From contig NZ_JH725116.1 in the NCBI RefSeq assembly GCF_000278115.1, forward strand, positions 92,517-156,516: a stretch of DNA of 64,000 nt, written 5' to 3'. Positions 30,228 through 42,741 of this stretch are shown here, in pieces. The number at the start of each line of letters is the position of its first letter. Position 1 is the stretch's first letter. A program made the translations under genes and the position numbers. The DNA comes from Bartonella sp. DB5-6 (GTDB taxonomy: Bacteria > Pseudomonadota > Alphaproteobacteria > Rhizobiales > Rhizobiaceae). Below the pieces are notes generated by a model, which was not told where the DNA came from, searched no databases, and was given only the letters and a program-made list of their open reading frames with translations.

Positions 30228-30716
30228 TTAGATGTGTTCAATTTCATATTTCCAATCAGGCAATTGAGTAAGAGCTAATGCGAGTTGTCCTCTATGGCAC
30301 ATGCATACATTGGCTTCAAAACAGGTGATTGCAACACGCTTTTTATTTAAAAAAATTTGATATAATTTATTTATTGCACAAGAATTATTCTTGAGAGTTG
30401 TATTTTGATAATCTTCAAAAAGGCGGTCATAATCTTTTTGTGTTTTCAAATTTCTTCGTTTTTCAGAAGCAATTCCAAGTTCAGGCATATGCATATATTC
30501 AATATCAATGTTGCTTACAGCTTGCTCTAATTGTCTTTTTGAAAATCCGCGTTTTCTACTTATTGGATTTTTACGAACATCACATAAAGTTTTGATATTG
30601 TTTTCTATGAGACTCTTAAGATAATTCTCAAGGGACCTACCTTCATAGCCAATGGTAAAAAAACAAAATTCCTCATCTTTAGCAGGCTGTATGATAATAT
30701 GTTTGATGTTACACAC
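30228..30716 (-). CDS. DUF488 family protein
   Basis: This 162-residue protein shows the DUF488 pattern: FFTIGYEGRSLENYL near the start, CDVRKNPISRKRGFSK, and ITCFEANVCMCHRGQLA in the C-terminal half. The two-cysteine CFE...CHR segment is conserved in the family. The biochemical function is not established. It belongs to the leftward early operon and is flanked on both sides by similar GC-rich hairpins, as though inserted as a unit. Confidence 0.8.
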   Translation of the reverse strand: MCNIKHIIIQPAKDEEFCFFTIGYEGRSLENYLKSLIENNIKTLCDVRKNPISRKRGFSKRQLEQAVSNIDIEYMHMPELGIASEKRRNLKTQKDYDRLFEDYQNTTLKNNSCAINKLYQIFLNKKRVAITCFEANVCMCHRGQLALALTQLPDWKYEIEHI

Positions 30717-31409: not shown

Positions 31410-32165
31410 TCACACCGCCGTTTGTTGTTGTGTTGGTGCCATTTGCTTGTTTTGTTTATCTTTCAAAAGATGCAAAACGGTTTGTGCGCTCTGATCAGAG
31501 ATATCATCAAGCTTTTCAACGTTTGCATAAGAAAGTATCTTTGCTTCTTCTGTTTGCGTTTGTACTATAAGTCTTCTGATTTCATTGATCTGGCGCGGCA
31601 AAGCAGGTTTAGTCGGCATATTTCCATCTGTATCGTCTTCTTTGCTTGCTACATTAAGAAGCATGCCTAACAGGTATCTTCGTGCGTAGGTAAGTGTAGA
31701 ACCAACGGATTGTATGCTATTTTTAGAGCCTGTACCGTCAATGGGAAATGTTCCTTGTGTTGAGATTTCCTTGCCTGAAGGATGAGACAGTGTCATTTCT
31801 ATGGTAATGTTTTTTTCTGTTTGATGCTTAATATGAGAAAACAAAGCAAAGTTGTGTTTTGCAAGTGTGTCCTTTACAGCATCAATATACTGATCAAGCG
31901 TAGCGTATTTGCTGTTTGTATGGTTATTCTTAGCAGTTTTTTCAATCTTTTGATATTCCGTTTGCATAGCGGAAAGATCAGAGACAAAGCTTTGATAGTT
32001 TTGCCGTTCTATTTCTTTTTCTCTTAAAGCAAGAAGACGCTCTAAGCGGTCCATGTCGACGTCATTTTCTAAGGCTCTGTTTAAAATGCGTTCCATAGCA
32101 GTTTGTTCGACGGCTAAGTGGTGTGTTTCTTCAACTTCTGTTAGGTTAGTGTTTTGTTCACTCAT
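31410..32165 (-). CDS. erf: ERF family single-strand annealing protein
   Basis: ERF proteins anneal complementary DNA strands and circularise phage genomes. I chose the ATG at 32165 (251 residues, MSEQNTNLTEVEET) with GGAGG eight bases upstream; the upstream start at 32195 lacks such a site. The ERF core runs from about residue 55 to 180, with SKYATLDQYIDAVKDTLAKHNFALF and GSTLTYARRYLLGMLLNVASKEDDTDGN. The glutamine-rich tail is variable in the family. Confidence 0.9.
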   Translation of the reverse strand: MSEQNTNLTEVEETHHLAVEQTAMERILNRALENDVDMDRLERLLALREKEIERQNYQSFVSDLSAMQTEYQKIEKTAKNNHTNSKYATLDQYIDAVKDTLAKHNFALFSHIKHQTEKNITIEMTLSHPSGKEISTQGTFPIDGTGSKNSIQSVGSTLTYARRYLLGMLLNVASKEDDTDGNMPTKPALPRQINEIRRLIVQTQTEEAKILSYANVEKLDDISDQSAQTVLHLLKDKQNKQMAPTQQQTAV

Positions 32166-32187
32166 CTTGATTTCCTCCATTTGCGCA

Positions 32188-32235
32188 CAATTCACCCGTG
32201 GCGTGAATCACGCTTGTGTTTAAAAGTTGTTTATG
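32188..32235 (-). repeat. Duplicated upstream hairpin element, copy 2
   Basis: This copy has the same CAATTCAC, GGCGTGAATCACGC and TTAAAAGTTGTT blocks as 30119-30164. In the - direction it lies directly before the ERF ribosome binding site and after the first beta-helix gene. Two copies in equivalent places suggest a shared post-transcriptional control. Confidence 0.65.
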
Positions 32236-32238
32236 CGG

Positions 32239-32787
32239 TTAGAAACGGCTTATGTAGCTTGGATAGATTGTTGAATATTCACTTTTGGAGATGATTGAAG
32301 TTTCTCCACGAATTTCAAAATTACCAGAAATATCTATATTATCGAAAACATATACTTTATCTTGAATTCTAATATCTCCAGAAATGTGTGCATTTTCACA
32401 TATAACGGCTTTTCCAAAAACACGAGCATTATCATAAACAAGACCATAAACATGTGCATTGTCATAAATTTGTGCATTGCCGAAGATTTGCGCATTGTAT
32501 TCAACACCAGCATTACCACAAACCTTGGCACTATCATAAACCTTGGCATTATCTCTAATTATTGATTTTTCGAATATCTGTGCATTACCAAAAACCTTAG
32601 CGTTATCACAAACCGCGGCATCATGCCAAACCCAACAGTCACCCTCATGACTTAAGTTGTCTTCTTTTGCTATAAAACCGCCTAGGTCACCTTTTTTAAT
32701 ATTTCTAAAGTCTCGTAATGCACGAATGCGGTGAAGAGTTTTGCCATAAACCTCCGTTGTTTCATCAGTAAGTTCGTATTTTTTCAT
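32239..32787 (-). CDS. YdcK-like hexapeptide beta-helix protein, paralogue A
   Basis: The protein has 182 residues. An N-terminal module of about 55 residues (KYELTDETTEVYGKTLHRIR, RDF, KKGDLGGFI, NLSHEGDCW) matches E. coli YdcK. It is followed by a run of hexapeptides of the form A-x-[VI]-Y-[GD]-N (NAKVFGNAQIF, NAQIYDNAHVYG). Such repeats fold as a left-handed beta-helix. The last 50 residues are less regular. The start overlaps the stop of paralogue B (ATGA). No catalytic residues are evident and the function is unknown. Confidence 0.85.
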   Translation of the reverse strand: MKKYELTDETTEVYGKTLHRIRALRDFRNIKKGDLGGFIAKEDNLSHEGDCWVWHDAAVCDNAKVFGNAQIFEKSIIRDNAKVYDSAKVCGNAGVEYNAQIFGNAQIYDNAHVYGLVYDNARVFGKAVICENAHISGDIRIQDKVYVFDNIDISGNFEIRGETSIISKSEYSTIYPSYISRF

Positions 32788-33326
32788 CTGGTCTTTTCTC
32801 CAGTTGAGATGACCTTATCTCCGCCAATCCATTCGTCCGAACATACATCTGCATTACCGTAAATTTTTACATTACCGTAAATGTGCGCATCATCGGAAAC
32901 TTGTGCATTACCGTAAACTTGTGCCTTATCGTAAACGCGTGCACTACCGTAAACTTGTGCTTCTGCGTAAATTTGTGCATTATCAAAAATTTCAGGTTCA
33001 CCGCAAATATATGCATCACCGTAAACTTCTGCATGACCGTAAATACGTGGTTCATTGAAAACTTCTGCATGTCCATAAATATGAGAATTACCGTAAACCT
33101 CGGCATAACCGTAAACTTGTGCATTTTCGTAAACCTTAGCATCATCATAAACACAAGCATAACCGCCAATCCAGCAATTACCATGATGCGATAGGTTGTC
33201 TTCTTTTTCGATATAGCCTCCTAAATCACCTTTTTTTACTTTTCCAAAATCTCTTAATGCACGAATGCGGTGGAGAGTTTTGCCATAAACCTCTGTTGTT
33301 TCATCAGTAAGTTCGTATTTTTTCAT
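32784..33326 (-). CDS. YdcK-like hexapeptide beta-helix protein, paralogue B
   Basis: This 180-residue paralogue has almost the same first 27 residues as paralogue A, and its 5' DNA is nearly identical too. About eighteen hexapeptides follow (DAKVYENAQVYGYAEVYGN and so on), ending in VISTGEKTR. Start and stop both overlap neighbours by ATGA, so A, B and C are translated as a coupled set. The helix part differs from A and C in sequence while keeping the period, as expected after tandem duplication and repeat shuffling. Confidence 0.85.
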   Translation of the reverse strand: MKKYELTDETTEVYGKTLHRIRALRDFGKVKKGDLGGYIEKEDNLSHHGNCWIGGYACVYDDAKVYENAQVYGYAEVYGNSHIYGHAEVFNEPRIYGHAEVYGDAYICGEPEIFDNAQIYAEAQVYGSARVYDKAQVYGNAQVSDDAHIYGNVKIYGNADVCSDEWIGGDKVISTGEKTR

Positions 33327-33742
33327 TTGGTTTTTTCTCCAGTTGAGATGGCGGTATAGCCGCCAACGTGTGCACCAAGACGAACTACCGCATCCCCGTA
33401 AACTTTTGCATCACCATACACTTCTGCATTGTCATAAATTCCAGCATCACCGTAAATCCTTGCATTATCGTGCACAAGTACATAACCACCAACCAAAGCA
33501 TTGTCATAAATCTCTGCATCATCATAAATCGAGGCATTGCCATAAATCCGTGCATTACCATAAACCTTAGCATTATGATAAATCCAACAGGAGTCTTCAT
33601 GAGATAAATTGCCTTCACGCTCTATATAACCGCCTAGGTCACCTTTCTCGACATCAGAAAAGTCTCTCAGTGCACGAATGCGGTGAAGAGTTTTGCCATC
33701 AACTTCGGTTGTTTCATCAGTAAGTTCGTATTTCTTTTCCAT
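33323..33742 (-). CDS. YdcK-like hexapeptide beta-helix protein, paralogue C
   Basis: The shortest of the set at 139 residues, this is first in the A-B-C operon. It has the shared N-terminal module (EKKYELTDETTEVDGKTLHR) and about twelve hexapeptides, ending YTAISTGEKTK like paralogue B. An AAAGGAG site lies before the ATG; B and A have no good sites of their own and rely on ATGA coupling. It lies in the left early arm, the position of host-takeover genes in lambdoid phages. The function is unknown. Confidence 0.85.
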   Translation of the reverse strand: MEKKYELTDETTEVDGKTLHRIRALRDFSDVEKGDLGGYIEREGNLSHEDSCWIYHNAKVYGNARIYGNASIYDDAEIYDNALVGGYVLVHDNARIYGDAGIYDNAEVYGDAKVYGDAVVRLGAHVGGYTAISTGEKTK

Positions 33743-33776
33743 GATTTTACTCCTTTAAGTTAGACTCTGCCTTTGT

Positions 33777-33794
33777 CGTTCTTGCAAAAGAACG
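33777..33794. repeat. Short hairpin upstream of paralogue C
   Basis: CGTTCTT and AAGAACG pair with a GCAA loop. AAAGAACGGC recurs about 35 bases to the right. The element lies in the leader between the 136-residue gene and paralogue C. Confidence 0.5.
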
Positions 33795-33838
33795 GCATTG
33801 CATTGTGTGGTCAATTTTTTGAAAAGAACGGCGCGCTT

Positions 33839-34249
33839 TTAGAAACGCCCTGTATAGTGAGGGTAGTTTGGAATAACGTCCCAAAGGGTTAAACGGTGCT
33901 GTTGTTCATAGGTACCAAACATTTCATCTTCATATCGCTGCTGTTCGATTTCTTCTAAAAAAAAACTGTATGCTGCGCTGTGTTCAATAAATTCGTGAGG
34001 TATTTTTCCATTTAAACACTGTTCTTCATGTTCTCTAAGGTAGAACTCCGCAATATCTTCAGAGATATCTTCACAACGATGAGTCGTTGGTTCGACGCGC
34101 AAGATTTGGACAGCATTCTCGGTTTGGTCGATAAATTTGATAATGTCCTTTTCTTCGTAGAAAGGACCAGATTTTGCAATGTTGTCTATCTCATCATTGC
34201 ACATCACTAAGAGAATTTCATCAGATTTTATAAACACTGGTTTATTCAC
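33839..34249 (-). CDS. First gene of leftward early operon, unknown function
   Basis: I chose the GTG at 34249 (136 residues, starting NKPVFIKSDEILLVMCNDEID) because GGAGG lies exactly six bases upstream; the ATG at 34261 overlaps that site. The protein is acidic and soluble, with no recognisable family and no membrane segment. As the first gene after the PL-like promoter it holds the place of lambda N, but nothing in the sequence (no arginine-rich N-terminus) supports an antiterminator role. Confidence 0.65.
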   Translation of the reverse strand: MNKPVFIKSDEILLVMCNDEIDNIAKSGPFYEEKDIIKFIDQTENAVQILRVEPTTHRCEDISEDIAEFYLREHEEQCLNGKIPHEFIEHSAAYSFFLEEIEQQRYEDEMFGTYEQQHRLTLWDVIPNYPHYTGRF

Positions 34250-34293
34250 AACTGCCTCCATTACCAAAATTTATAAATATCATTTTGTTACAA

Positions 34294-34319
34294 ACGTCTC
34301 TTGACAGGCGTTTTTTTTT
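34294..34319 (+). terminator. Terminator-like hairpin in the left operator region
   Basis: ACGTCT at 34294-34299 pairs with AGGCGT at 34306-34311 (one G-U), followed by nine T residues on the + strand. It lies between the PL-like promoter and the first leftward gene. On the - strand no T-run follows, so it would act only on rightward transcripts. Confidence 0.45.
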
Positions 34320-34333
34320 GAGGTTATGGCATG

Positions 34334-34362
34334 GTGATAATTGTATTTTATGCACAAGTCAA
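34334..34362 (-). promoter_or_regulatory. PL-like promoter with embedded operator
   Basis: Read on the - strand, TTGACT (34362-34357), a 17-base spacer and TATCAC (34339-34334) form a promoter facing the leftward operon. The spacer contains TGTGCATAAAATACA, an imperfect copy of the operator in the rightward promoter. The first 20 bases from -35 onward differ from that promoter at only one position. Confidence 0.65.
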
Positions 34363-34370
34363 TTAAAATT

Positions 34371-34385
34371 TTGCATAAAATGCAA
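34371..34385. promoter_or_regulatory. Candidate phage repressor operator
   Basis: TTGCAT and ATGCAA flank AAA to make a perfect 6+6 inverted repeat. The same core (TGCAT-AAA-ATGCA) lies in the PR-like promoter at 34912-34926, and a one-mismatch copy lies in the PL-like promoter. The likely binders are the repressor at 34514-34843 and the Cro-like protein. Confidence 0.6.
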
Positions 34386-34442
34386 AAAATTTTCTTAAAA
34401 AATGTAATTAATTTATACTCTATCCACAATTTAGGAGGTGTT

Positions 34443-34625
34443 ATGAGTAATATAGATAAAAAAATAGCTTCTATTTTTTCGTTATTTAATGAAAAAGAAC
34501 AATCAGTTGTTGCTTATTTTGTTTTTAATTTTTTTAGTAATTCAAGAAAATCAAGTACGGCTTCTTTATCGGCTGGTTCAAGAGAGGCACACATTTTCAT
34601 GAAATCTAAATCCACTTCTTTATAA
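34443..34625 (+). CDS. Possible small protein antisense to the repressor gene end
   Basis: An ATG at 34443 preceded by AGGAGGTGTT opens a 60-residue frame starting MSNIDKKIASIFSLFNEKE. The last 37 codons run antisense to the repressor gene. The strong binding site and AT-rich but plausible N-terminus argue for a real gene; the antisense overlap argues against the full length being selected. TTGACA (34301-34306) with a poor -10 lies upstream. Confidence 0.35.
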   Translation: MSNIDKKIASIFSLFNEKEQSVVAYFVFNFFSNSRKSSTASLSAGSREAHIFMKSKSTSL

Positions 34626-34843
34626 AAACTAGGTGGAGGCTCATTAAAAAATTCAGAGATTTTTACTAATTCATCTATGGTTATATCGCGGGTTTTCCCA
34701 TTTTGATAGGTATTAAGCATGCGATTCACTGCTGACGGGTGTAACTCTAGATGTGAAGCTAATAATGTTTGTGCACCGTGTCCACGTTCTTTAAGCCGCT
34801 CTTTAATCCATAGCTTAATTTGGGACTGAATATCTTGTTTCAT
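34514..34843 (-). CDS. Prophage repressor, Cro/CI-type helix-turn-helix
   Basis: The 109-residue protein has a helix-turn-helix at about residues 24-60 (GAQTLLASHLELHPSAVNRMLN), with the pattern of XRE-type regulators. The C-terminal helical region (EPADKEAVLDFLELLKKLK) could dimerise. There is no peptidase domain with S/K residues, so induction is probably not by LexA-like self-cleavage. AAGGAT precedes the ATG. It sits between two opposing promoters that share operators, which is where a lysogeny repressor is expected. Confidence 0.8.
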   Translation of the reverse strand: MKQDIQSQIKLWIKERLKERGHGAQTLLASHLELHPSAVNRMLNTYQNGKTRDITIDELVKISEFFNEPPPSFYKEVDLDFMKMCASLEPADKEAVLDFLELLKKLKTK

Positions 34844-34904
34844 GATTCATATAATCCTTAAAAATATACTTTTATGCAAAAAATGCTAAAAAGGCACAAT
34901 TGTG

Positions 34905-34933
34905 TTGACTTGTGCATAAAATGCAATTATCTA
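34905..34933 (+). promoter_or_regulatory. PR-like promoter with embedded operator
   Basis: TTGACT at 34905-34910, a 17-base spacer and TATCTA at 34928-34933 make a good promoter directed at the Cro-like gene, whose ATG lies 23 bases beyond. The spacer holds TGCATAAAATGCA, an inverted repeat that a bound repressor would use to block RNA polymerase. Confidence 0.7.
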
Positions 34934-34955
34934 TTGCGCTGTTATGGAGATAGAT

Positions 34956-35237
34956 ATGCCTTCGAGATTAATCATAAAATATTTAGGTGGTTACAAAACG
35001 GTAGCAACCATAGTTAAAAGGGATGTATCATCTGTTTGCAGATGGCGTAATTCGATACCAGCAAAACACCAGCAAAAAATTTTAAATTATGCACGTGACC
35101 ATGGCATAGATTTGCGTCCTGATGATTTCTTTTATCCTGAACGCTTGCAGAGATTAATGCAAGAGCAACACCCCCCAATTACGAAGATTTTCAAGAGCTG
35201 CGGCGTTGATAGCGCGGGTGAGACTTTGCGCTCTTAA
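34956..35237 (+). CDS. Cro-like/YdaS-type regulator
   Basis: The 93-residue protein starts at the ATG 34956 (MPSRLIIKYLGGYKTVA) with GGAGATAGAT upstream; an earlier ATG at 34944 overlaps that site. KTVATIVKRDVSSVCRWRNSIPAKHQQKIL is a helix-turn-helix like those of Cro and YdaS proteins. It is the first rightward gene, divergent from the repressor, which fits a lytic switch role. The fusion gene's binding site begins right at its stop. Confidence 0.7.
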   Translation: MPSRLIIKYLGGYKTVATIVKRDVSSVCRWRNSIPAKHQQKILNYARDHGIDLRPDDFFYPERLQRLMQEQHPPITKIFKSCGVDSAGETLRS

Positions 35238-35247
35238 GGAGATGATG

Positions 35248-36243
35248 ATGGCTGTAGAAAAGAAATATGAGTTCACACGCCAAGGAGTAACGCTTTATCC
35301 TGATAAGAATAATTCACATGGTATTGTAATGCTTCGTCGCATACGGGCACTGAGAGACTTTGGAAACGTTAAAAAAGGTGATTTTGGTGGTTTTATAGAA
35401 CATGAAGGTAACCTATCACATGAAGGGGATTGTTGGGTAGATGATTCGGATAATTCCTTTAGCCGTGGATATGTTTTTGGCAATGCTAGGATTTTTGGAG
35501 ATGCACGTGTTGGTGGCAGGGCTCGTGTTTTTGGAAATGCGGAAGTATACGGTTGTGCAGAAGTTTCTAATTTTGCGTATGTTTATGATCATGCAAAGAT
35601 TTACGGTAATAGCAAGGTTTATCATTCTCGCGTTTACGGTGAAGCACAAATTTATGAGAATGCTTTTGTTAGAGGTCAAGCAGAAGTTTATGGGAATTCT
35701 CGCATTTTTGGGAATGCTGAAATTTATACAAAAGCACGTGTGTACGGTCAAGCTAAGGTTTTTGGTAATGCCGAAGTTTTCAATCAATCTAAAGTTTATG
35801 ACAATGCGTTAGTTCACGGGCATGCCAAGATTAGAGAGAATGCCAAGATTTACGGCAATGCCGATGTTTGTGACTATGAAGATTTTCGCGATAACGACGA
35901 AGTTTACATGCGTAAACACGTTTCATATAGCACAAACGAAGCACATAAGGATGATGCTGGTAAGGCGCGTGTTGAACTAATCCCACCGTTGGCACTGATT
36001 GAAATCGGTAAAGTTTTAGAGTTTGGGGCAAAGAAGTACGGAGCAAACAATTGGCGTAATGGCATGCACTGGAGCAGGTTTCACGGTGCTGCTTTACGTC
36101 ATTTATTAGCATGGTTTGGTGGAGAGCATAAGGATGCTGAGAGTGATTTGTCACACTTGGCACATGCGGCTTGTTGCATTCTTTTTTTAATGGAATGCGA
36201 AGCACAACAGATTGGTCATGATGACCGCCTTCATAAAAATTAA
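35248..36243 (+). CDS. Fusion of YdcK-like beta-helix and DUF5664 (dATP/dGTP diphosphohydrolase-like) domain, paralogue D
   Basis: I chose the ATG at 35248 with AAGGAG six bases upstream (331 residues). Residues about 5-63 are the YdcK-like module (KKYEFTRQGVTLYP, RRIRALRDFGNVKKGDFGG). Residues 75-205 are hexapeptide repeats (NARIFGDARVGGRARVFGN and more). Residues 238-326 match DUF5664, the N-terminal domain of phage dATP/dGTP diphosphohydrolases related to MazG: GKARVELIPPLALIEIG, FGAKKYGANNWR, RHLLAWFGGE and DLSHLAHAACCILFLM. The enzymatic role is inferred; whether this single domain is active is unknown. The linker near 210-235 is acidic and aromatic. Confidence 0.8.
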   Translation: MAVEKKYEFTRQGVTLYPDKNNSHGIVMLRRIRALRDFGNVKKGDFGGFIEHEGNLSHEGDCWVDDSDNSFSRGYVFGNARIFGDARVGGRARVFGNAEVYGCAEVSNFAYVYDHAKIYGNSKVYHSRVYGEAQIYENAFVRGQAEVYGNSRIFGNAEIYTKARVYGQAKVFGNAEVFNQSKVYDNALVHGHAKIRENAKIYGNADVCDYEDFRDNDEVYMRKHVSYSTNEAHKDDAGKARVELIPPLALIEIGKVLEFGAKKYGANNWRNGMHWSRFHGAALRHLLAWFGGEHKDAESDLSHLAHAACCILFLMECEAQQIGHDDRLHKN

Positions 36244-36254
36244 AGGAGATAAAG

Positions 36255-36716
36255 ATGAGTTTAAATGAAATTTTATGGATAGTGACGTTTTCAGTTTTGC
36301 TTTTAGGAGGGGTCATATTTCGTTTTGCCTTGCATTATCGTGACCAAGTTAAAGCACTTAAAGAGCAGGTTAATAATCTTAAGAAAGAAATGAGAGAGAA
36401 TGAGTTGAGGTATTTAAAGGAAAGCAAGCAGACAATTGATGAATGTGATGCGGATCTTAAAGAACGTGACAAGATAATTGAAGAACTAAAACAAGAGCTT
36501 GAAGAACGCGACGAGGAAATGAAACAACTGAAACAAAAGACTGAAGAGCATGAAAAGGCGTTCAGAAATGTAAGTGAAGTTGTAATGACACTTGAAGCAG
36601 ATGTGCAATCACGTGATGCGGAAATTCAAAGACTAACACAAGAGCTTAAACAGCGTGATGAAGCAGTAAAAGCGCCGTCTCATAAAAATAAGAAGAGTAA
36701 GAAGAAGGGTAAGTGA
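36255..36716 (+). CDS. Membrane-anchored coiled-coil protein
   Basis: This 153-residue protein has one N-terminal membrane segment (EILWIVTFSVLLLGGVIF) followed by a long charged coiled coil (residues about 30-135, rich in E, K and Q) and a very basic tail (HKNKKSKKKGK). The topology resembles small phage envelope proteins such as i-spanins, but its early-region place does not fit lysis. An AAAGGAG site precedes the ATG. Confidence 0.65.
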   Translation: MSLNEILWIVTFSVLLLGGVIFRFALHYRDQVKALKEQVNNLKKEMRENELRYLKESKQTIDECDADLKERDKIIEELKQELEERDEEMKQLKQKTEEHEKAFRNVSEVVMTLEADVQSRDAEIQRLTQELKQRDEAVKAPSHKNKKSKKKGK

Positions 36717-36728
36717 GGTGTGGATAAG

Positions 36729-37487
36729 ATGACAGTTAAAAAGAAGTATGAATCTACTGATGAAACAATCGAAGTTAATGGAGTTACGCTTCACCGTATA
36801 CGTGCTTTAAGAAATTTTAGAGATGTGTACGCAGGTGACTTAGGTGGCTTTATTGAAAATGAAAGCAATTTAAGTCATGAGGGAGACTGTTGGGTTGGGG
36901 ACGATGCAAAGGTTTATGGTAGTGCTAGGGTTTACGGTCGAGCCAAGGTTTTTGGTAATGCCAACGTTTATGATAACGCTCATGTTTATGGCAATGCCAT
37001 TGTTTATTTTGATGCTAAAGTTTTTGATAATGCACATGTATACGGTACAGCAATAATTTGTGGAAATGCCCGTGTGTGTGGTAATGCATGGATTGATACA
37101 GGTTATATTAGTGGTTGTGATTTAGTTAATAGTAGTAAAAAGAAATACGAACTTACAGACGATACAGTTGATCTCGGTCCTTTCAAGTTACACCGAATAC
37201 GAGCATTGAGAAGCTTTGGCAAAGTAAAGAAAGGTGATTTAGGTGGCTGGGTAGAGAGTGAAGAGAACCTCAGTCACGAAGGTAATTGTTGGATTAGTGG
37301 TTTGGGGGCTGTTTTTGGTGGCGGCAGATTACGTGGTGATCACCTAGTTCCAAACTTTAATTACATTTCCAATACGACTTATAAATTGTCTATGTTAACA
37401 CCACAACAATACATGGCATCTCTACCTTGGCACCGTAGAATATGGGAGCGACTCCGTTATTATTGGGAGTGCGGAATATGGCTTTAG
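36729..37487 (+). CDS. YdcK-like beta-helix protein with two N-terminal modules, paralogue E
   Basis: The 252-residue protein has a first module (about 5-58), eleven or so hexapeptides (60-125), then a second complete module at 139-190 (KKYELTDDTVDLGPFKLHRIR, KKGDLGGWVE, NLSHEGNCW) followed by only a few repeat-like residues. The C-terminus is unrelated and rich in W, Y and R (WHRRIWERLRYYWE). I chose the ATG at 36729, about 10 bases after GAGG; a GTG at 36720 is too close to that site. It is probably a fusion of two adjacent paralogues. Confidence 0.8.
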   Translation: MTVKKKYESTDETIEVNGVTLHRIRALRNFRDVYAGDLGGFIENESNLSHEGDCWVGDDAKVYGSARVYGRAKVFGNANVYDNAHVYGNAIVYFDAKVFDNAHVYGTAIICGNARVCGNAWIDTGYISGCDLVNSSKKKYELTDDTVDLGPFKLHRIRALRSFGKVKKGDLGGWVESEENLSHEGNCWISGLGAVFGGGRLRGDHLVPNFNYISNTTYKLSMLTPQQYMASLPWHRRIWERLRYYWECGIWL

Positions 37488-38137
37488 CTATTAGAATTAT
37501 TCATGAAGAGCTTTCTTTTAAATAGTTTATCAAACCACGTTTTGTTTTGCTGGTTTGTCCACCGGAAAAAACCAAGACAAAACTTGGTTTCAAGCGCTGC
37601 TTCTGGATCATTACATGAGGTGTGTTCAACTACGATGGTTATAGGTTTTCTTAAACATGGTTTTTGTGGGTGTATGGTAAACCAAAGAGTCAATTTACTT
37701 TTGGCTTTTATACTAAAAAGATCAAAAAATCCCAAATGGTTAGGATCTAATTTTGGGTCTATTAAATCAATATACTTATCGCTTTTTAAAGCGATTTTCT
37801 TTGCATTTTTACGTTTTTTAGAATCTGAGATACCTTCGGTAGGATCTGGGTAGAGTGCTTCAGTAAATATAAATGGGTGTTTTTTAGGTATTTTGATGTG
37901 ATTTATTTTGATTATTTGGTTTGTAGGATTGTAAATGGCTAATTCCAATTCAACTTCAAGGTCACTAGGATGCTCTGGAGACAGATGTTCATAAACTGTA
38001 CGTACAGTACAGTTTTGCAACTTTTGTCCTAAACATTTTTCTTTTTGTTCTTTGTAGCTTTTATACAAAACAAAAAGTAGAGAGAACGTACTAATGATTA
38101 AAGAAATACATTCATATGTTGTTGGTGTATCTTCCAT
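37484..38137 (-). CDS. Membrane-anchored protein of unknown function
   Basis: From the ATG at 38137 the product has 217 residues with one N-terminal membrane helix (CISLIISTFSLLFVLY). The soluble part (about 30-200) has beta-rich blocks (LEVELELAIYNPTNQIIKINHI, KLTLWFTIHP) and ends in a basic tail. It runs against the surrounding rightward early genes, which suggests a separately expressed lysogenic gene. Starts further upstream would run into the RuvC-like gene. I recognise no family. Confidence 0.6.
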   Translation of the reverse strand: MEDTPTTYECISLIISTFSLLFVLYKSYKEQKEKCLGQKLQNCTVRTVYEHLSPEHPSDLEVELELAIYNPTNQIIKINHIKIPKKHPFIFTEALYPDPTEGISDSKKRKNAKKIALKSDKYIDLIDPKLDPNHLGFFDLFSIKAKSKLTLWFTIHPQKPCLRKPITIVVEHTSCNDPEAALETKFCLGFFRWTNQQNKTWFDKLFKRKLFMNNSNS

Positions 38138-38202
38138 ATTTTTCTCAGCCCGCTTTTGGAAAAAGACAATCCTATAAAACACATTTTGTATGGAGAGGCG
38201 CG

Positions 38203-38676
38203 GTGAATAACACGATTCTTTGTTTTGATCTAGGTACGAAGACGGGGTGGGCGATACGTGGTGCAAGTGGTGACATATTCAGTGGTACCGTGAATTTTCA
38301 ACCAAGTCGTTTTGAAAGCGGTGGGATGCGTTACTTGCGCTTTAAGAGATGGCTATCAGAAATAAAGCAGACAGCAGATGGAATTGATGCGGTGTATTTT
38401 GAAGAGGTGCACCGGCATATTGGTACAGATGCTGCGCATGTGTACGGTGGTTTATTAGGTCACTTAACGGCTTGGTGTGAACAGCATCAGATACCGTATG
38501 AGGGTATACCGGTTTGTACGATTAAGAAAGTGACGACAGGCAAGGGGAATGCGTCGAAAGAAGAGATGATTAAGGCGGTGCGTGCAAAAGGGCACAATCC
38601 AAAAGATGACAACGAAGCAGATGCTTTAGCAATTTTATATTTAGTTAAAGAAAGGGAATTGGGGTATGTCCAGTAA
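38203..38676 (+). CDS. RuvC-like Holliday junction resolvase
   Basis: The GTG at 38203, with GGAGAGG upstream, gives 157 residues. The RNase H-like fold is shown by CFDLGTKTGW (D9), AVYFEEVH (E67/E68) and DDNEADALAILYL (D136, D140), the acidic set used for metal-dependent cleavage. Phage RuvC-like enzymes resolve branched DNA before packaging. It overlaps the next gene by 11 bases. Confidence 0.85.
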   Translation: MNNTILCFDLGTKTGWAIRGASGDIFSGTVNFQPSRFESGGMRYLRFKRWLSEIKQTADGIDAVYFEEVHRHIGTDAAHVYGGLLGHLTAWCEQHQIPYEGIPVCTIKKVTTGKGNASKEEMIKAVRAKGHNPKDDNEADALAILYLVKERELGYVQ

Positions 38677-39808
38677 ATTACCGTGGACGAGACTTAATAC
38701 AGACCAGTGGCTATTTAAACTCTCTGATTTACCGCCTATGGAAGTCAATGTTTATGTGAAGTTGCGGATAAGAATGTTACACACGCGTGAACCTCTTTTG
38801 AATGATTCACGAATATTATCTCATTTTACTTGTTGTTCAGTAAAAAGATTTCAAAAGGCATTAGAGTATTTATTTAGATCTGGACACATCATTTGTTTAG
38901 AAGATGGTCGTTTGTGGAGTTCAGATGTTGAGGAAGAACTCAATAACTCAAACGAAAATTTAAATAAATTTTCAGAGAGAGCACAGAAGGCAGCGCAAGC
39001 AAAATGGGCAAAACATCATAAAGCAAAAACAATTAGTGATGATCAAGATGCTAAGCATGATGCTAAAGCAATGCTTAAGGATGCTAAGCATGATGCTAAC
39101 GGTATGCTTAAGAATGCTAAGCATAATGCTAAGCATGACGCTAGCAATGCACAAGCAATGCTTAATTATGCCATTAACAATAACAATAACATATATAATA
39201 AAAAAACTAATACTATCGTATTAGCAAAAAAAGAAATTGGTTCTGAAAATTTAGAAACAATCGATTTGGTTCAAGAGCCAACGGAGGTTCATGATCTCGA
39301 GAGCCAATCAGATCAAATCGCAACCTCATCAGAAAACCAACCTCCCATTCACGAGCAAGAGAGCGTTCCAGAAAAAGCAAAGCGGGTTAGAAATGACTGG
39401 GGCTGTCGTATCCCTGATGATTTCGAACCCGATTACGCTTTTGCCATTGCAGAGGGGTTGCCTCCAGAGCGTGTGAAAGTCGAAATCGCAAAGTTTCGAG
39501 ATTTTTGGAAAGCTAAAGCAGGTAAGGATGCACGCAAAACGGATTGGAAAGCAACGTGGAGAAACTGGGTGCGAAAGGCTATCGAGGATTTAGAGAAAGG
39601 AAAAAATTATGGAAAACAAACCAATTCCCAAACAGGACAACAGCGCGGGTGGAATTATCGAGTTGCACAGCACATGTCCGATATCAAAAATTCAGATAGT
39701 GTTTACAAATTTTTATTCGAGGATGGAGAAAGAACCACCATTCCTTTGGAAAATGGGTCAAAAGCCCTCGATTGTAGAAGTGGAGAGAGTTACTTCATTA
39801 GTCAATGA
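38666..39808 (+). CDS. Phage replication protein, DUF1376-type N-terminus
   Basis: The 380-residue protein begins with a winged-helix-like DUF1376-type domain (about 1-100: WTRLNTDQWLFKLSDL, RMLHTREPLL, SVKRFQKALEYLF). A repetitive linker follows (DAKHDAKAMLK three times, 128-160). After a low-complexity segment comes a C-terminal replisome-organiser-like part (VRNDWGCRIPDDFEPDYAFA, WKATWRNWVRKA). It probably opens the phage origin and recruits host helicase. The gene contains the likely origin (repeat feature at 39047). Its last 200 bases overlap the next frame. Confidence 0.78.
   Translation: MSSKLPWTRLNTDQWLFKLSDLPPMEVNVYVKLRIRMLHTREPLLNDSRILSHFTCCSVKRFQKALEYLFRSGHIICLEDGRLWSSDVEEELNNSNENLNKFSERAQKAAQAKWAKHHKAKTISDDQDAKHDAKAMLKDAKHDANGMLKNAKHNAKHDASNAQAMLNYAINNNNNIYNKKTNTIVLAKKEIGSENLETIDLVQEPTEVHDLESQSDQIATSSENQPPIHEQESVPEKAKRVRNDWGCRIPDDFEPDYAFAIAEGLPPERVKVEIAKFRDFWKAKAGKDARKTDWKATWRNWVRKAIEDLEKGKNYGKQTNSQTGQQRGWNYRVAQHMSDIKNSDSVYKFLFEDGERTTIPLENGSKALDCRSGESYFISQ
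39047..39145 (+). repeat. Three 33-bp tandem repeats inside the replication gene (candidate origin iterons)
   Basis: Units at 39047-39079, 39080-39112 and 39113-39145 share GATGCTAAGCATGATGCTAA at their start with some substitutions, each containing the near-palindrome ATGCTAAGCAT. A very AT-rich stretch follows (about 39171-39215, AACAATAACAATAACATATA). Iterons within an initiator gene beside an AT-rich segment is the layout of the lambda origin in gene O. Confidence 0.65.
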
Positions 39809-40214
39809 TGCGTTGAAAAAGCTTGAAAAAAAAGCGAGCGAAGAGGAAATCCAAACGACGTATCTTGTCCTTTCAAGTGGTCTCAAAAGCCAATTGGGAT
39901 CAGACGCAAAATCAACAGCGCTTGCGTATCTTTACGCTCTTGAAGGTGTGAGCAGCTGGGTATTGCAAACAGCAACAAAGAACGTTTTGAAAGGCAAAGC
40001 AGAGGGATTAAATCCAACATTTATGCCCTCAACAGCAGATTTTTATCGTTATTGCGAAAAGCTTGAAAGCGATATTCGCTTTCGTGCAAATCGCCTTCTA
40101 AAGAACCTTGAAAAGCCTGAAAAAGGAACAAATCAAAAGGCACCGATGCCATCAGAACGCATTGAAAAGCTTCAAAAAGAACTTGAAGAGATTTTAAAGG
40201 GCATTGAAGGATAA
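39609..40214 (+). CDS. Phage protein of unknown function, overlapping the replication gene
   Basis: The ATG at 39609 has AGAAAGGAAA upstream and gives 201 residues, but this overlaps the replication gene by 200 bases in another frame. Later ATGs at 39723 or 39753 are also possible and would leave a smaller overlap. The main part is helical and charged (VTSLVNDALKKLEKKASEEE, ALAYLYALEGVSSWVLQTATKNVL), with a C-terminal coiled coil. No family recognised; the setting suggests a replication accessory role. Confidence 0.6.
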   Translation: MENKPIPKQDNSAGGIIELHSTCPISKIQIVFTNFYSRMEKEPPFLWKMGQKPSIVEVERVTSLVNDALKKLEKKASEEEIQTTYLVLSSGLKSQLGSDAKSTALAYLYALEGVSSWVLQTATKNVLKGKAEGLNPTFMPSTADFYRYCEKLESDIRFRANRLLKNLEKPEKGTNQKAPMPSERIEKLQKELEEILKGIEG

Positions 40215-40225
40215 ACAGCAAAGTA

Positions 40226-40357
40226 GTGAAATTTGCTGAACGTTTTGAGAATAGATATGCGTTTAAATTGACAGAAAGACACCGTACAGAGCGATTTAAA
40301 GATTTTATGATAAAAACTACATTGAAATTAAAAACGCTTCTGTACGGTCCATTTTGA
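40226..40357 (+). CDS. Possible 43-residue protein spanning an inverted repeat
   Basis: A GTG at 40226 opens a frame of 43 residues (KFAERFENRYAFKLTERHR and on) without a good binding site. The interval also holds an inverted repeat: CCGTACAGAGCG at 40282-40293 against CGCTTCTGTACGG at 40335-40347, with about 40 bases between. The repeat may be the more meaningful feature. Confidence 0.25.
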   Translation: MKFAERFENRYAFKLTERHRTERFKDFMIKTTLKLKTLLYGPF

Positions 40358-40395
40358 GGCAAATAGACACATTGGTAAAATTATGGACTAAAAGC

Positions 40396-40743
40396 ATGAG
40401 GATTTTAAAACATTTGTTCTTAAAAAACCGTAAACAGCCAATGCAAAAAAAGTTTATCGCAACAGCTGTTGGCTATGTCCCATGGGGGGACGGAGCGGCA
40501 GAGTATTTTTACAACCTCTACGAATATCCTGATGGCACAAGAGAGTGTGAAAAGTTTGATGGCGGACAGTATTATACCACACCAGAAAATGCGGATTTTA
40601 GTACCAAAGCGCAAGTGAAAGCGTGGGTTTATGGAGGTAATGTTCCGAAAAGCGTTCTCAATTACGAACCTCTCATAGATGAGATCAATAAAGAGATCAA
40701 AAAATTATCGAAAACCACAGGAAATAAATATGTTTACAGATAA
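40396..40743 (+). CDS. Small prophage protein of unknown function
   Basis: The ATG at 40396 gives 115 residues starting MRILKHLFLKNRKQPMQ. Other possible starts are a TTG at 40354 and an ATG at 40441; none has a clear binding site. The middle (VGYVPWGDGAAEYFYNLYEYPDGTRECEKFDGG) is aromatic-rich and looks like a small beta domain. The 3' end overlaps the next gene by 14 bases. No family recognised. Confidence 0.5.
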   Translation: MRILKHLFLKNRKQPMQKKFIATAVGYVPWGDGAAEYFYNLYEYPDGTRECEKFDGGQYYTTPENADFSTKAQVKAWVYGGNVPKSVLNYEPLIDEINKEIKKLSKTTGNKYVYR

Positions 40744-41245
40744 ACAACTAAGAGCCTTGTTTGGCATTATAACTTTTATATTTTTATGTTTTTTAGGAAT
40801 TAAAAAAAATCTTGACTTTATTCAGAGTATTTTGACATTCGCATCTGTTTCTTTGGTAATAGTCACAACGGTTTTTGCAATTTTATGCAATTCCAATATC
40901 CCTTTTGAGTTGCAAAACAACCCAAAATACAAATGCGGAAATACAACAGGTTGGAAGATATTAACACGTGATTTACAACAGTATATGCATAGACTTTTAA
41001 AGCTAATAAGTTTAGCGCTTGTCGTTTTAATTTTCCCAAGTAGTTATAAAGAAACTGTTTCTTTGTCTGTCGTTTCTAATTACGTGGAATACAAGCTTTC
41101 TTTTCCATTAGATACTGTACTTTGGTACTCAGATATTGCTCTTTGGTATTCTTTTTTAGTTTGTGTATTGTTTCTTATGTTACATACACGCAGTTTAATA
41201 AATATATCTATTTACACACTACAGTGCTCAGTTAAAAAGCCATAG
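40730..41245 (+). CDS. Prophage membrane protein of unknown function
   Basis: From the ATG at 40730, preceded by AGGAAATAA, the 171-residue product has about four hydrophobic segments (LFGIITFIFLCFLGI, ILTFASVSLVIVTTVFAIL, LLKLISLALVVLIF, FLVCVLFLMLHT). No signal cleavage site is apparent. The arrangement could suit a superinfection-exclusion or holin-like protein, but the sequence gives no specific support for either. Confidence 0.6.
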   Translation: MFTDKQLRALFGIITFIFLCFLGIKKNLDFIQSILTFASVSLVIVTTVFAILCNSNIPFELQNNPKYKCGNTTGWKILTRDLQQYMHRLLKLISLALVVLIFPSSYKETVSLSVVSNYVEYKLSFPLDTVLWYSDIALWYSFLVCVLFLMLHTRSLINISIYTLQCSVKKP

Positions 41246-41652
41246 TAAAATTTCCTATTTTATACTTTTTTACAAAGACTTCATTCTTATGACCTTATAG
41301 ACAGCAAGCTAGAAAAAGCGCTTAATATTCAATTAGGTAAGCATCAAAATGAAAAAATATGAAAAAATAAAAAATACGTATTGACATTAAAAGAAGGTTC
41401 GTTTAGAAGGACGTCAAGTGTGTAGAAACACTTACGAATAGCGGATAGGTTACGAAACAGCCTCTCCCATGCCTTTAAGAAACTGACTTTCTTTTATGCT
41501 ATTATTGGCATATAACGATTTTGTCGGGCGTAGTATGTTATACAATACCCTTTTTAGGGGAAAGCATACAGCGGACTATTCGCCGTGTTTCTAGCGCCCG
41601 ACGCCCTTATAGGGTGTCAATAGAAACCTTTTTTACGAATAGGATTACTAGC
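41246..41652 (+). other. Non-coding interval with hairpins before the sixth beta-helix gene
   Basis: About 400 bases hold no convincing gene. A TTGACA at 41381-41386 could be a -35 box with a weak -10. A perfect hairpin follows (AAGTGT/ACACTT, 41415-41432) and then a larger predicted structure (41523-41602). Transcription toward the beta-helix gene at 41653 is likely to begin here. Confidence 0.5.
41523..41602 (+). ncRNA. Candidate structured RNA or leader (three-way junction)
   Basis: GTCGGGCG at 41523-41530 pairs perfectly with CGCCCGAC at 41595-41602 and the stem extends by TAG/CTA with one bulge. Inside, GTATG pairs with CATAC around a CCCT/AGGG hairpin, and GCG/CGC forms a second arm. 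The fold was found by eye on an 80-base span. It sits about 50 bases before the start of paralogue F and could be a cis-acting leader or a separate small RNA. Confidence 0.4.
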
Positions 41653-42423
41653 ATGAATGCTACAGTAAAAAATCAAAAAACATCTCCAAAATATGAACTT
41701 ACTAATGAAAACTGCGTTGTTAACGGTGTGACTTTACACCGCATTAGAGCTATTAGAGATTTTGCTGATGTAAAAGCTGGGGACCTCGGGGGCTTTATTG
41801 AAAATGAAAGCAACCTTTCTCATGATGGCAATTGCTGGGTGTATGATGATGCTATGGTTATTCAAGCAAGCGTTTCCGAAAATGCCAAAATACGCAATAA
41901 AGCCTGCGTTGTGAATTGGGCTAGGGTTTATGGTAATGCCGTGATTAGTGATAAGGCATGGGTTTTGAATGATAAGGCACATGTTTATGACAATGCAGTC
42001 ATTAATGGCAATGCAAAAATTGGAGGCTATGTTTTTGGCAATGCTGTTGTGAGTGATAATGCCGTTATTACAGAGGGGGCTCTTATTTACGATAATGCCC
42101 GTGTTTATGAAAATGCGTATGTGAGTGGGCTTGTGTTTAATGATGCCCATGTCTATGGGAAATCACGCCTTGCTGCGTGGTCAAAAGCTTATGGAAATGC
42201 TCATGTTTTTGATAACGCTATAGTTTATGATGGTAGCAATATTTATGACAATGCCAAGGTTTCTGGCTCGGCGCGTGTTGGTCCCTGTGCAAAAATTCAC
42301 GATAATGCTCATGTGAGTGGCAAGGCACAAATTTGCCAATTTACAACGATTTATGGCAATGCTGTGCTTAAAGAAAATAAGAAATTTTCTGAAGATGTCT
42401 GTGGTGATGATAAAGCAGCGTAA
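41653..42423 (+). CDS. YdcK-like hexapeptide beta-helix protein, paralogue F
   Basis: This is the longest uninterrupted helix of the set at 256 residues. The N-terminal module (PKYELTNENCVVNGVTLHRIR, DVKAGDLGGFIENESNLSHDG) is closest to paralogue E. About thirty hexapeptides follow (NAVVSDNAVIT, NARVYENAYVSG, NAKVSGSARVG). I chose the ATG at 41653 with AGGAT upstream; the open frame further 5' crosses the structured leader. It lies apart from the other copies between a membrane protein and ssb, with its own non-coding leader and a hairpin after it. Confidence 0.85.
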   Translation: MNATVKNQKTSPKYELTNENCVVNGVTLHRIRAIRDFADVKAGDLGGFIENESNLSHDGNCWVYDDAMVIQASVSENAKIRNKACVVNWARVYGNAVISDKAWVLNDKAHVYDNAVINGNAKIGGYVFGNAVVSDNAVITEGALIYDNARVYENAYVSGLVFNDAHVYGKSRLAAWSKAYGNAHVFDNAIVYDGSNIYDNAKVSGSARVGPCAKIHDNAHVSGKAQICQFTTIYGNAVLKENKKFSEDVCGDDKAA

Positions 42424-42741
42424 ATAAAATAACGGCGCGGGGGGCTGCTTTATAGCAAAAAAACCGCATCAAAATGAATTGATACGGCTTTTATGATCAA
42501 AAAAATAGCGATCTAAATAAACGATTAAAATGATCAATCGAAATTAAAAGAACATCTCTTTATTGCACAAAACGTATCAAAATGCAAGCTGTTAAATAAA
42601 GTAAAAATGGGATTCATTCTTTAGATTCAGTGTGTTATAATAAATTTCGTTTGTAATTACACACCATAATGTGTTATACCACCATCAGTTGTGAGTTCAT
42701 TTTGTTCTAAGTACTATTTTCCATTAAAGGACAGAAAGCAA
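42424..42741 (+). other. Non-coding interval before ssb with terminator-like hairpin
   Basis: CCGCATCAA at 42464-42472 pairs with TTGATACGG at 42479-42487 (one mismatch), followed by CTTTTAT, a likely terminator for paralogue F. The rest is AT-rich. TGTGTTATA occurs twice (near 42630 and 42670) and may include a promoter for ssb. No gene seen. Confidence 0.5.

Follow-up and report, generated by a model that had tools for sequence, protein, structure and literature searches.

Why should the early region of a single Bartonella prophage hold six relatives of the enterobacterial protein YdcK, and what could decide when such proteins are made? The locus in question lies in a 64,000-nucleotide (nt) stretch of the Bartonella sp. 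DB5-6 genome (assembly GCF_000278115.1, contig NZ_JH725116.1, positions 92,517 to 156,516 of the forward strand), which in its whole length we call the window; the assembly itself comprises 2.13 Mb in 25 contigs. A first-pass annotation had pointed to six YdcK-like genes here, named A to F below. Our answer centres on a leader RNA that stands ahead of F, and ahead of arrays of such genes elsewhere in Bartonella, in which a variable hairpin loop would pair with the ribosome-binding region of its own downstream gene. This pairing is strongly supported by sequence comparison, whilst the use to which it may be put is a matter of graded likelihood.

The leader is perhaps easiest to see in the array at L202 in genome G035 (2.71 Mb, one contig), where a gap of about 1.5 kb between a restriction gene and the YdcK genes contains no open reading frame (ORF) of at least 80 amino acids (aa). 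This gap holds a strongly folding leader (z -3.2), which 86 stretches resemble by BLAST. The window leader reaches 53.9 bits against the small RNA family sRNA-Xcc1 (RF02221; gathering score 53), the L202 leader passes too, and R1, a model built from leaders with the window row among them, gives the window leader 95.4 bits. The fold of 41412-41626 has a z score of -4.04, and its minimum-energy structure pairs the 5' copy of a short sense sequence with the hairpin loop. A second copy lies at the start of F (Table 1), and no further copies of ACGAATAG were found in the window region from 21.7 to 64 kb.

When the leaders are aligned, the hairpin loop starts with CT and continues with five varying bases, and the reverse complement of the loop occurs once in the 5' part of the leader and again beside the Shine-Dalgarno sequence of the downstream gene. 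The fixed sequence CGAATAG is found in few leaders, and the loop therefore varies. Amongst 77 leaders chosen by BLAST similarity alone, and not by the match, 75 have a recognised loop (two do not), and these 75 carry 32 distinct loops. A full 7-nt match between a leader's own loop and the ribosome-binding region was found in 68 of the 75, compared with 0 of 1500 trials with the loops of other leaders, and 29 of the 32 distinct loops have a match on this side; on the 5' side, the figures are 66/75 for the leader's own loop and 31/1500 for those of others. The genes behind the 75 leaders are 48 YdcK, 13 Rha/Ant-like and seven others (three of them Rha-like by eye), with none found in seven cases. 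Likewise, 45 stretches of G035 yielded 45 hairpins with 22 distinct loops, 39 of the hairpins having a copy at the ribosome-binding side; by pattern-based assignment, 21 stand before YdcK genes and 21 before antirepressor-like genes.

The same arrangement extends in part beyond the genus. In a sample of 398 Pseudomonadota genomes, RF02221 matched 58 at E values up to 0.001, 40 of them over the gathering score, against none of 14 controls, and the hairpin could be recovered in 29 of 30 such loci outside Bartonella. At the ribosome-binding side, 16 of these 29 matched over 6 nt or more (19/800 in the control), and at the 5' side 21 of 29 did so (30/800). Some of the genes behind these loci appear by eye to be BRO, KilA-N or Rha-like antirepressors. 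In the portion of the literature available to our search, no published account describes loop-to-ribosome-binding-site matching in sRNA-Xcc1 or in the Brt RNAs of B. henselae.

As read from the alignments, the variable loop is complementary to the ribosome-binding region of the presumed target, which is the mark of a C4-type RNA. The C4 RNA of phages P1 and P7, according to the available text of two accounts, represses an antirepressor operon, one loop covering the ribosome-binding site and another conferring specificity (PMC5320573, PMC8546580). YdcK-like genes and antirepressors have a control RNA in common, and this points to F and the arrays being silent in a resident element and expressed on entry or induction. 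From these parallels we infer silencing, timing at entry, action in trans and an antirepressor-like effect on a factor of the host or of a resident element. The products of the YdcK-like genes would be accessory proteins that phages and mobile islands encode in their early regions, and in these proteins an N-terminal cap may nucleate a rigid, probably non-enzymatic β-helix of adjustable length; this helix would be a binding scaffold, at times joined to other domains or to a membrane anchor. F, like the gene that opens many Bartonella island arrays, would be gated by an sRNA-Xcc1-type leader RNA, whose loop could pair either with the 5' copy inside the leader or with the gene start. By analogy with C4 of P1 and P7, a resident element would keep its own gene silent and also silence an incoming element of the same loop, and an element with a different loop would make its protein when it enters or is induced; this protein, like an antirepressor, would then act on a host or resident-element factor. 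Whether F and the arrays do supply binding scaffolds for the entry phase, under the control of a C4-like antisense RNA, is in our judgement an evenly balanced matter.

A number of observations weigh against this proposal. Positions 41350-41700 do not match RF01695, the C4 family, even with E values up to 1 allowed. R1 has one match in the window, at F only, and genes A to E have no such leader and must therefore be controlled otherwise. At the F leader, no sigma-70-like promoter was detected in a consensus scan, and regional sites are as frequent as in shuffled sequence; the good promoter upstream of the L202 array was read by eye. Three genomes have leaders without YdcK genes, two have YdcK genes without leaders, and leaders also stand before a protein of about 100 aa (ITTDFLCDLWMAV; L204:3716-3816, L053, L077 and L111). 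Loops are not strictly private, some recurring in G035, partly via recent duplication, and 13 of the 29 leaders outside Bartonella have no match of at least 6 nt at the ribosome-binding side. Finally, the pair counts of 100% and 91.5%, taken from the 63 leaders with both exact copies (59 aligned), agree with the loop matching but are descriptive and not independent.

Could the leader act in cis only, attenuating or switching the transcript of which it is part, with no immunity in trans, the matched triple simply keeping a drifting switch in working order? The minimum-energy fold would suit such a switch, as would the recurrence of loops between elements of one genome, and the Brt authors, in the text available, propose a riboswitch as well as a role in trans (PMC5387305). 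A cis switch, however, needs no hypervariable heptamer, and the diversity of loops suggests selection for differing specificities, as described for C4 in the accessible text of PMC5320573; we regard the cis explanation as possible and somewhat doubtful. Comparably tentative is a broader extension of the C4-like proposal, in which RNAs of the sRNA-Xcc1/Brt type form a widespread addressing system: every mobile element would bear a short loop code that fits its own entry gene, the code telling self from non-self among dozens of co-resident elements, and YdcK β-helices would be new entry or antirepressor-like effectors released on mismatch.

The genes themselves are all open and uninterrupted and sum to about 4.0 kb; ORFs, Pfam and PHROG agree on this and bear out the first-pass annotation as to number, place and intactness. 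It had also placed copies on both early arms, and the layout is indeed that of a divergent early region, with A-B-C running leftward ahead of the gene for the annealing protein ERF and D-E-F rightward. A/B and B/C overlap by 4 bases each. The sole regulator examined, an ORF at 34944-35237, matches P22_Cro below the cut-off (E 1.2e-4), and the gene after F, at 42691, is ssb-like as named from a reading of its sequence. A DUF488 protein is encoded at window positions 30228-30716, with the recombination genes on one side and the integrase end of the prophage on the other.

Table 1. Location of the YdcK-like genes, the leader elements and related features; coordinates without a prefix are window positions
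Feature	Position	Strand	Basis or remark
Leader RNA core, sRNA-Xcc1 fold	41521-41618 (Rfam match 41523-41610)	+	Directly upstream of F
5' sense copy ACGAATAG of leader	41434-41441	+	
Hairpin loop with antisense heptamer CTATTCG	41574-41582	+	
Second sense copy ACGAATAG	41635-41642	+	Overlaps likely Shine-Dalgarno sequence of F
YdcK-like gene A, 139 aa	33323-33742	-	N cap and β-helix coils; Pfam, PHROG, predicted structure
YdcK-like gene B, 180 aa	32784-33326	-	Pfam and PHROG profile matches
YdcK-like gene C, 182 aa	32239-32787	-	Directly upstream of ERF gene; Pfam, PHROG
YdcK-like gene D, 331 aa	35248-36243	+	C-terminal dGTP_diPhyd_N domain
YdcK-like gene E, two N modules	36720-37487, alternative ATG 36729	+	PHROG, ORF reading
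YdcK-like gene F, 256 aa	41653-42423	+	Downstream of leader RNA; Pfam, PHROG
ERF single-strand annealing protein gene, adjoins C	31410-32195	-	PF04404 match at window 31617-31982
Transmembrane (by eye) and coiled-coil gene	36255-36716	+	Relatives fused to YdcK-like protein elsewhere
Type ISP restriction-modification gene	L202:11287-16329		One of 21 places in G035
Membrane/coiled-coil-YdcK fusions	L049:9089-10201; L072:1742-2731; L025:156-998; L111:5114-6211		
Pentapeptide-repeat proteins of Listeria phages with GCF end	L220:2611-3150; L221:2111-2626		GCF profile

Family membership is equally consistent. All six proteins match PHROG 5070, 7964 and 20149 (the last a 53-aa family of the N-terminal module), the weakest match being that of D to 20149 (E 1.4e-15), and five of the six exceed the gathering score of 30 bits of Pfam B_solenoid_ydck (PF18836), E standing at 29.9. 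An alignment of A to F has 33 invariant columns, 23 of which lie inside the first 53 residues of A, in agreement with the common N-terminal module proposed earlier. Against the YdcK equivalog model NF040481, A to F score 75.9-123.2 bits, far below its cut-off of 350. No Ant, Rha or KilA antirepressor family appears among their Pfam, PHROG and NCBIfam matches, and what is shared with phage antirepressors is the control RNA only, not protein homology.

What kind of protein lies behind this control? The AlphaFold2 model of gene A, the only one of the six modelled, was built on 50 alignment rows and has a pLDDT of 95.8; among solved structures it comes closest to Salmonella YdcK (Foldseek E 2.8e-8), and residues 4-139 superpose on residues 3-145 of 2f9c_A over 134 residues at 1.6 Å (VIA-align Z 19.7), N cap included. 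By sequence, F also matches Salmonella YdcK 2f9c (E 1.4e-18). We thus predict with high confidence that gene A encodes a β-helix with a YdcK-type N-terminal cap; the kinship to YdcK and the helix suggested in the first-pass annotation are upheld, and its own structure-prediction check returned a β-helix for A. The invariant residues of the 50 rows sit in the cap, whilst near-invariance in the helix is limited to Ala and one Val, and no His or other polar helix residue is invariant or reaches 90% in those rows. Fold and residue conservation lead us to infer a scaffold and not an enzyme. Some phage annotations do name members of the family acyltransferase or glucosamine N-acyltransferase, and the next-best structural family, reached with Z up to 14.0 over the helix part only, is indeed that of the hexapeptide acyltransferases; considering that YdcK is the best match by far and that the helix has no invariant or near-invariant His, an acyltransferase-type enzyme seems to us very improbable.

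Within the relatives surveyed, the N module occurs in 26 of 37 Bartonella genomes (our own included) and in none of 24 other genomes of the order, and R1 matches in 27 of 61, Bartonella only. The window's six genes are part of 16 N-module matches across their own genome, where the B protein recurs with identical sequence in a second prophage stretch (L195:9074-9616). The 108 module matches of G035 fall into 30 clusters, and 106 of the matches are free of stops. Elsewhere the module is sparse: it is found in 1 of 289 genomes of the class sample, namely our own, in 9 of 398 of the phylum sample (two Bartonella with 16 and 5 copies, seven others with a single copy) and in 83 of 50,697 INPHARED phage records, and 21 of 64 non-Bartonella loci hold at least two copies within the fetched stretch. 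Counting places found by tblastn was dropped as a measure of copy number, the seven places of phiST1 and the six of P26059A being one gene each; read on the stretches, LfeInf has four copies, phiXacJX1 two, Javan174 one and KLEB27-3 two. Four fetched stretches (L195, L198, L199 and L078) contain masked runs. In L036, L082 and L115 the frame switches inside the repeats and reading continues open in another frame, as repeat DNA is poor in stops in other frames. Three Saccharibacteria contigs (L058, L089 and L093) carry tandem YdcK arrays, for which RecG-type helicase and GTP1/OBG proteins nearby suggest a chromosomal place.

Do so many copies reflect selection for diversity, as the first-pass annotation held? 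Part of its reading holds: the copies are intact, selected and recurrently multiple, and Bartonella copies elsewhere are neither mostly single nor mostly broken. Over 76 independent Bartonella pairs, however, dN/dS is 0.19 in the module and 0.27 in the helix, and it stays below 1 at every position of the helix repeat (0.05-0.44, the two highest values being 0.44 and 0.37); this range rules out positive selection on outward helix positions, and selection on the copies is purifying rather than diversifying. In a tree built from 248 of the 259 Bartonella copies, 202 of them labelled by genomic slot, slot labels change 51 times against a mean of 101 (minimum 92) in 300 shuffles that ignore relatedness, and locus labels 169 times against 167. 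Sorting is thus by slot and not by locus, and the copies therefore represent old lineages, each tied to its slot, and not recent tandem bursts; as each slot keeps its own lineage, we propose that the copies have separate jobs. Such a pattern sits poorly with the idea that these genes are selfish passengers of mobile islands with no function for the element. Very high copy numbers tied to amplified islands are what this idea would predict; purifying selection, the near absence of interrupted copies in G035, slot-bound lineages and matched control RNAs all speak against it, and we find it improbable.

The association with restriction genes deserves separate consideration. In G035, a same-strand YdcK module starts no more than 3 kb downstream of 20 of the 21 type ISP restriction-modification genes (PF18135), and 88 of the 108 YdcK copies lie within 6.5 kb downstream of such a gene. 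Over the 37 Bartonella genomes, YdcK and type ISP copy numbers correlate with a rho of 0.81, compared with 0.55 for ERF and 0.10 for genome size. Might the YdcK-like proteins then act against host factors, for example restriction enzymes, as decoys or as anti-defence proteins? The link would favour this, as would Tad2-like genes amongst the non-Bartonella neighbours (2/142). However, only 21 of 40 restriction genes in eight other genomes have a downstream YdcK gene (contig ends uncorrected), islands may carry both by descent, and amplification of islands could account for the link with no common function. PADLOC, moreover, lists no match at E <0.01 for seven of eight YdcK proteins, the remaining one being weak (0.0048). 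Nor does the family as a whole consist of acidic mimics of DNA: A and B do have an acidic character (charge near -10 per 100 aa), but the median charge per 100 aa is -0.3 in 270 Bartonella proteins and -1.7 in 114 others, and this near-neutral median rules out DNA mimicry as a family trait. We therefore hold an anti-defence role to be unlikely, though less so than the passenger idea. The restriction link, like the leader RNA and the partly printed copy number in Bartonella, lay beyond the view of the first-pass annotation.

Fusions offer a further view of the scaffold. The dGTP_diPhyd_N domain at the end of D (PF18909, E 2.2e-34) also exists as a gene of its own in this genome, within the second prophage stretch (L195:15265-15597), and the membrane/coiled-coil gene that is separate in the window is fused to a YdcK-like protein in four Bartonella loci; tblastn found no relatives of it in other phages. 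In other phages, the C-terminal partners of the helix are DUF7666-like, DUF551 and an unnamed domain, GCF; DUF7666 had no match in the literature searched. A profile for GCF, made from six tails, picks out 24 genes in the fetched set, every one a YdcK gene; it also matches pentapeptide-repeat proteins of the Listeria phages B025 (E 7.3e-7) and AG20 (8.7e-8) at their ends, with E values for a nominal 11,000 sequences. YdcK and pentapeptide-repeat proteins both end in GCF, and thus one C-terminal domain follows two different β-solenoids. There is no universal neighbour: amongst 142 near neighbours of non-Bartonella loci, with 133 far genes as a control, no family has more than three members. ERF is the nearest downstream landmark of 42 of the 259 Bartonella copies, and adjacency to an annealing protein also occurs in phiST1 and Javan174; seen in Bartonella and these two phages only, it was not upheld as a general rule.

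Taken as a C4-like system, these leaders offer a testable mechanism for two puzzles at once, the sRNA-Xcc1 RNA family and a phage protein family with no assigned function, of which one 2.7-Mb genome carries 108 copies. Should specificity between elements be set by the loop code, sequence alone would predict which prophages and islands keep one another's entry genes silent, and the question of how the B. henselae Brt RNAs act would become a defined base-pairing test.

How does this arrangement compare with what is already described? On the protein side, enterobacterial YdcK (PF18836; 2f9c, 2pig) is predicted to have the N cap and β-helix in common with gene A; in seven sampled genomes of one other family it is a single chromosomal copy with an open frame of about 320-380 aa, and, judged by title, none of the papers listed for it concerns function. 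PHROG 5070, 7964 and 20149 are phage proteins without a function in the database, to which the present analysis adds slots, fusions and a control RNA. Multiplication of the gene in Bartonella has already been published in part: in B. grahamii, a gene resembling one of phage Sfi18 is present 29 times, usually clustered in threes (Berglund 2009, PMC2697382), and it almost surely belongs to the YdcK-like family because Sfi18 gp229 matches gene A. The accessible part of that text gives no fold, leader RNA or restriction link.

On the RNA side, sRNA-Xcc1 figures in the accessible literature as a trans-acting or virulence-linked small RNA, with no mention there of loop-to-ribosome-binding-site matching. 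The Brt RNAs of B. henselae, as the available text describes them, measure 194-203 nt, fold strongly and lie in multiple copies in a plastic prophage region before a regulator gene, with nine copies in Houston-1 (Tu 2016, PMC5387305), compared with eight R1 matches in G013. We liken them to the present leaders by description only, that is by size, place and rough copy number; Brt RNAs are described in that source as leading helix-turn-helix genes, whereas the present leaders stand before YdcK and antirepressor-like genes. The closest parallel is C4 of P1/P7 and its Acinetobacter relatives, in the available account a leader-derived RNA whose variable loops pair near the ribosome-binding site of an antirepressor (PMC5320573), much as the present leaders would. 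Known here from sequence alone, these leaders appear to follow the same logic as C4 within another Rfam family, with YdcK genes as extra clients.

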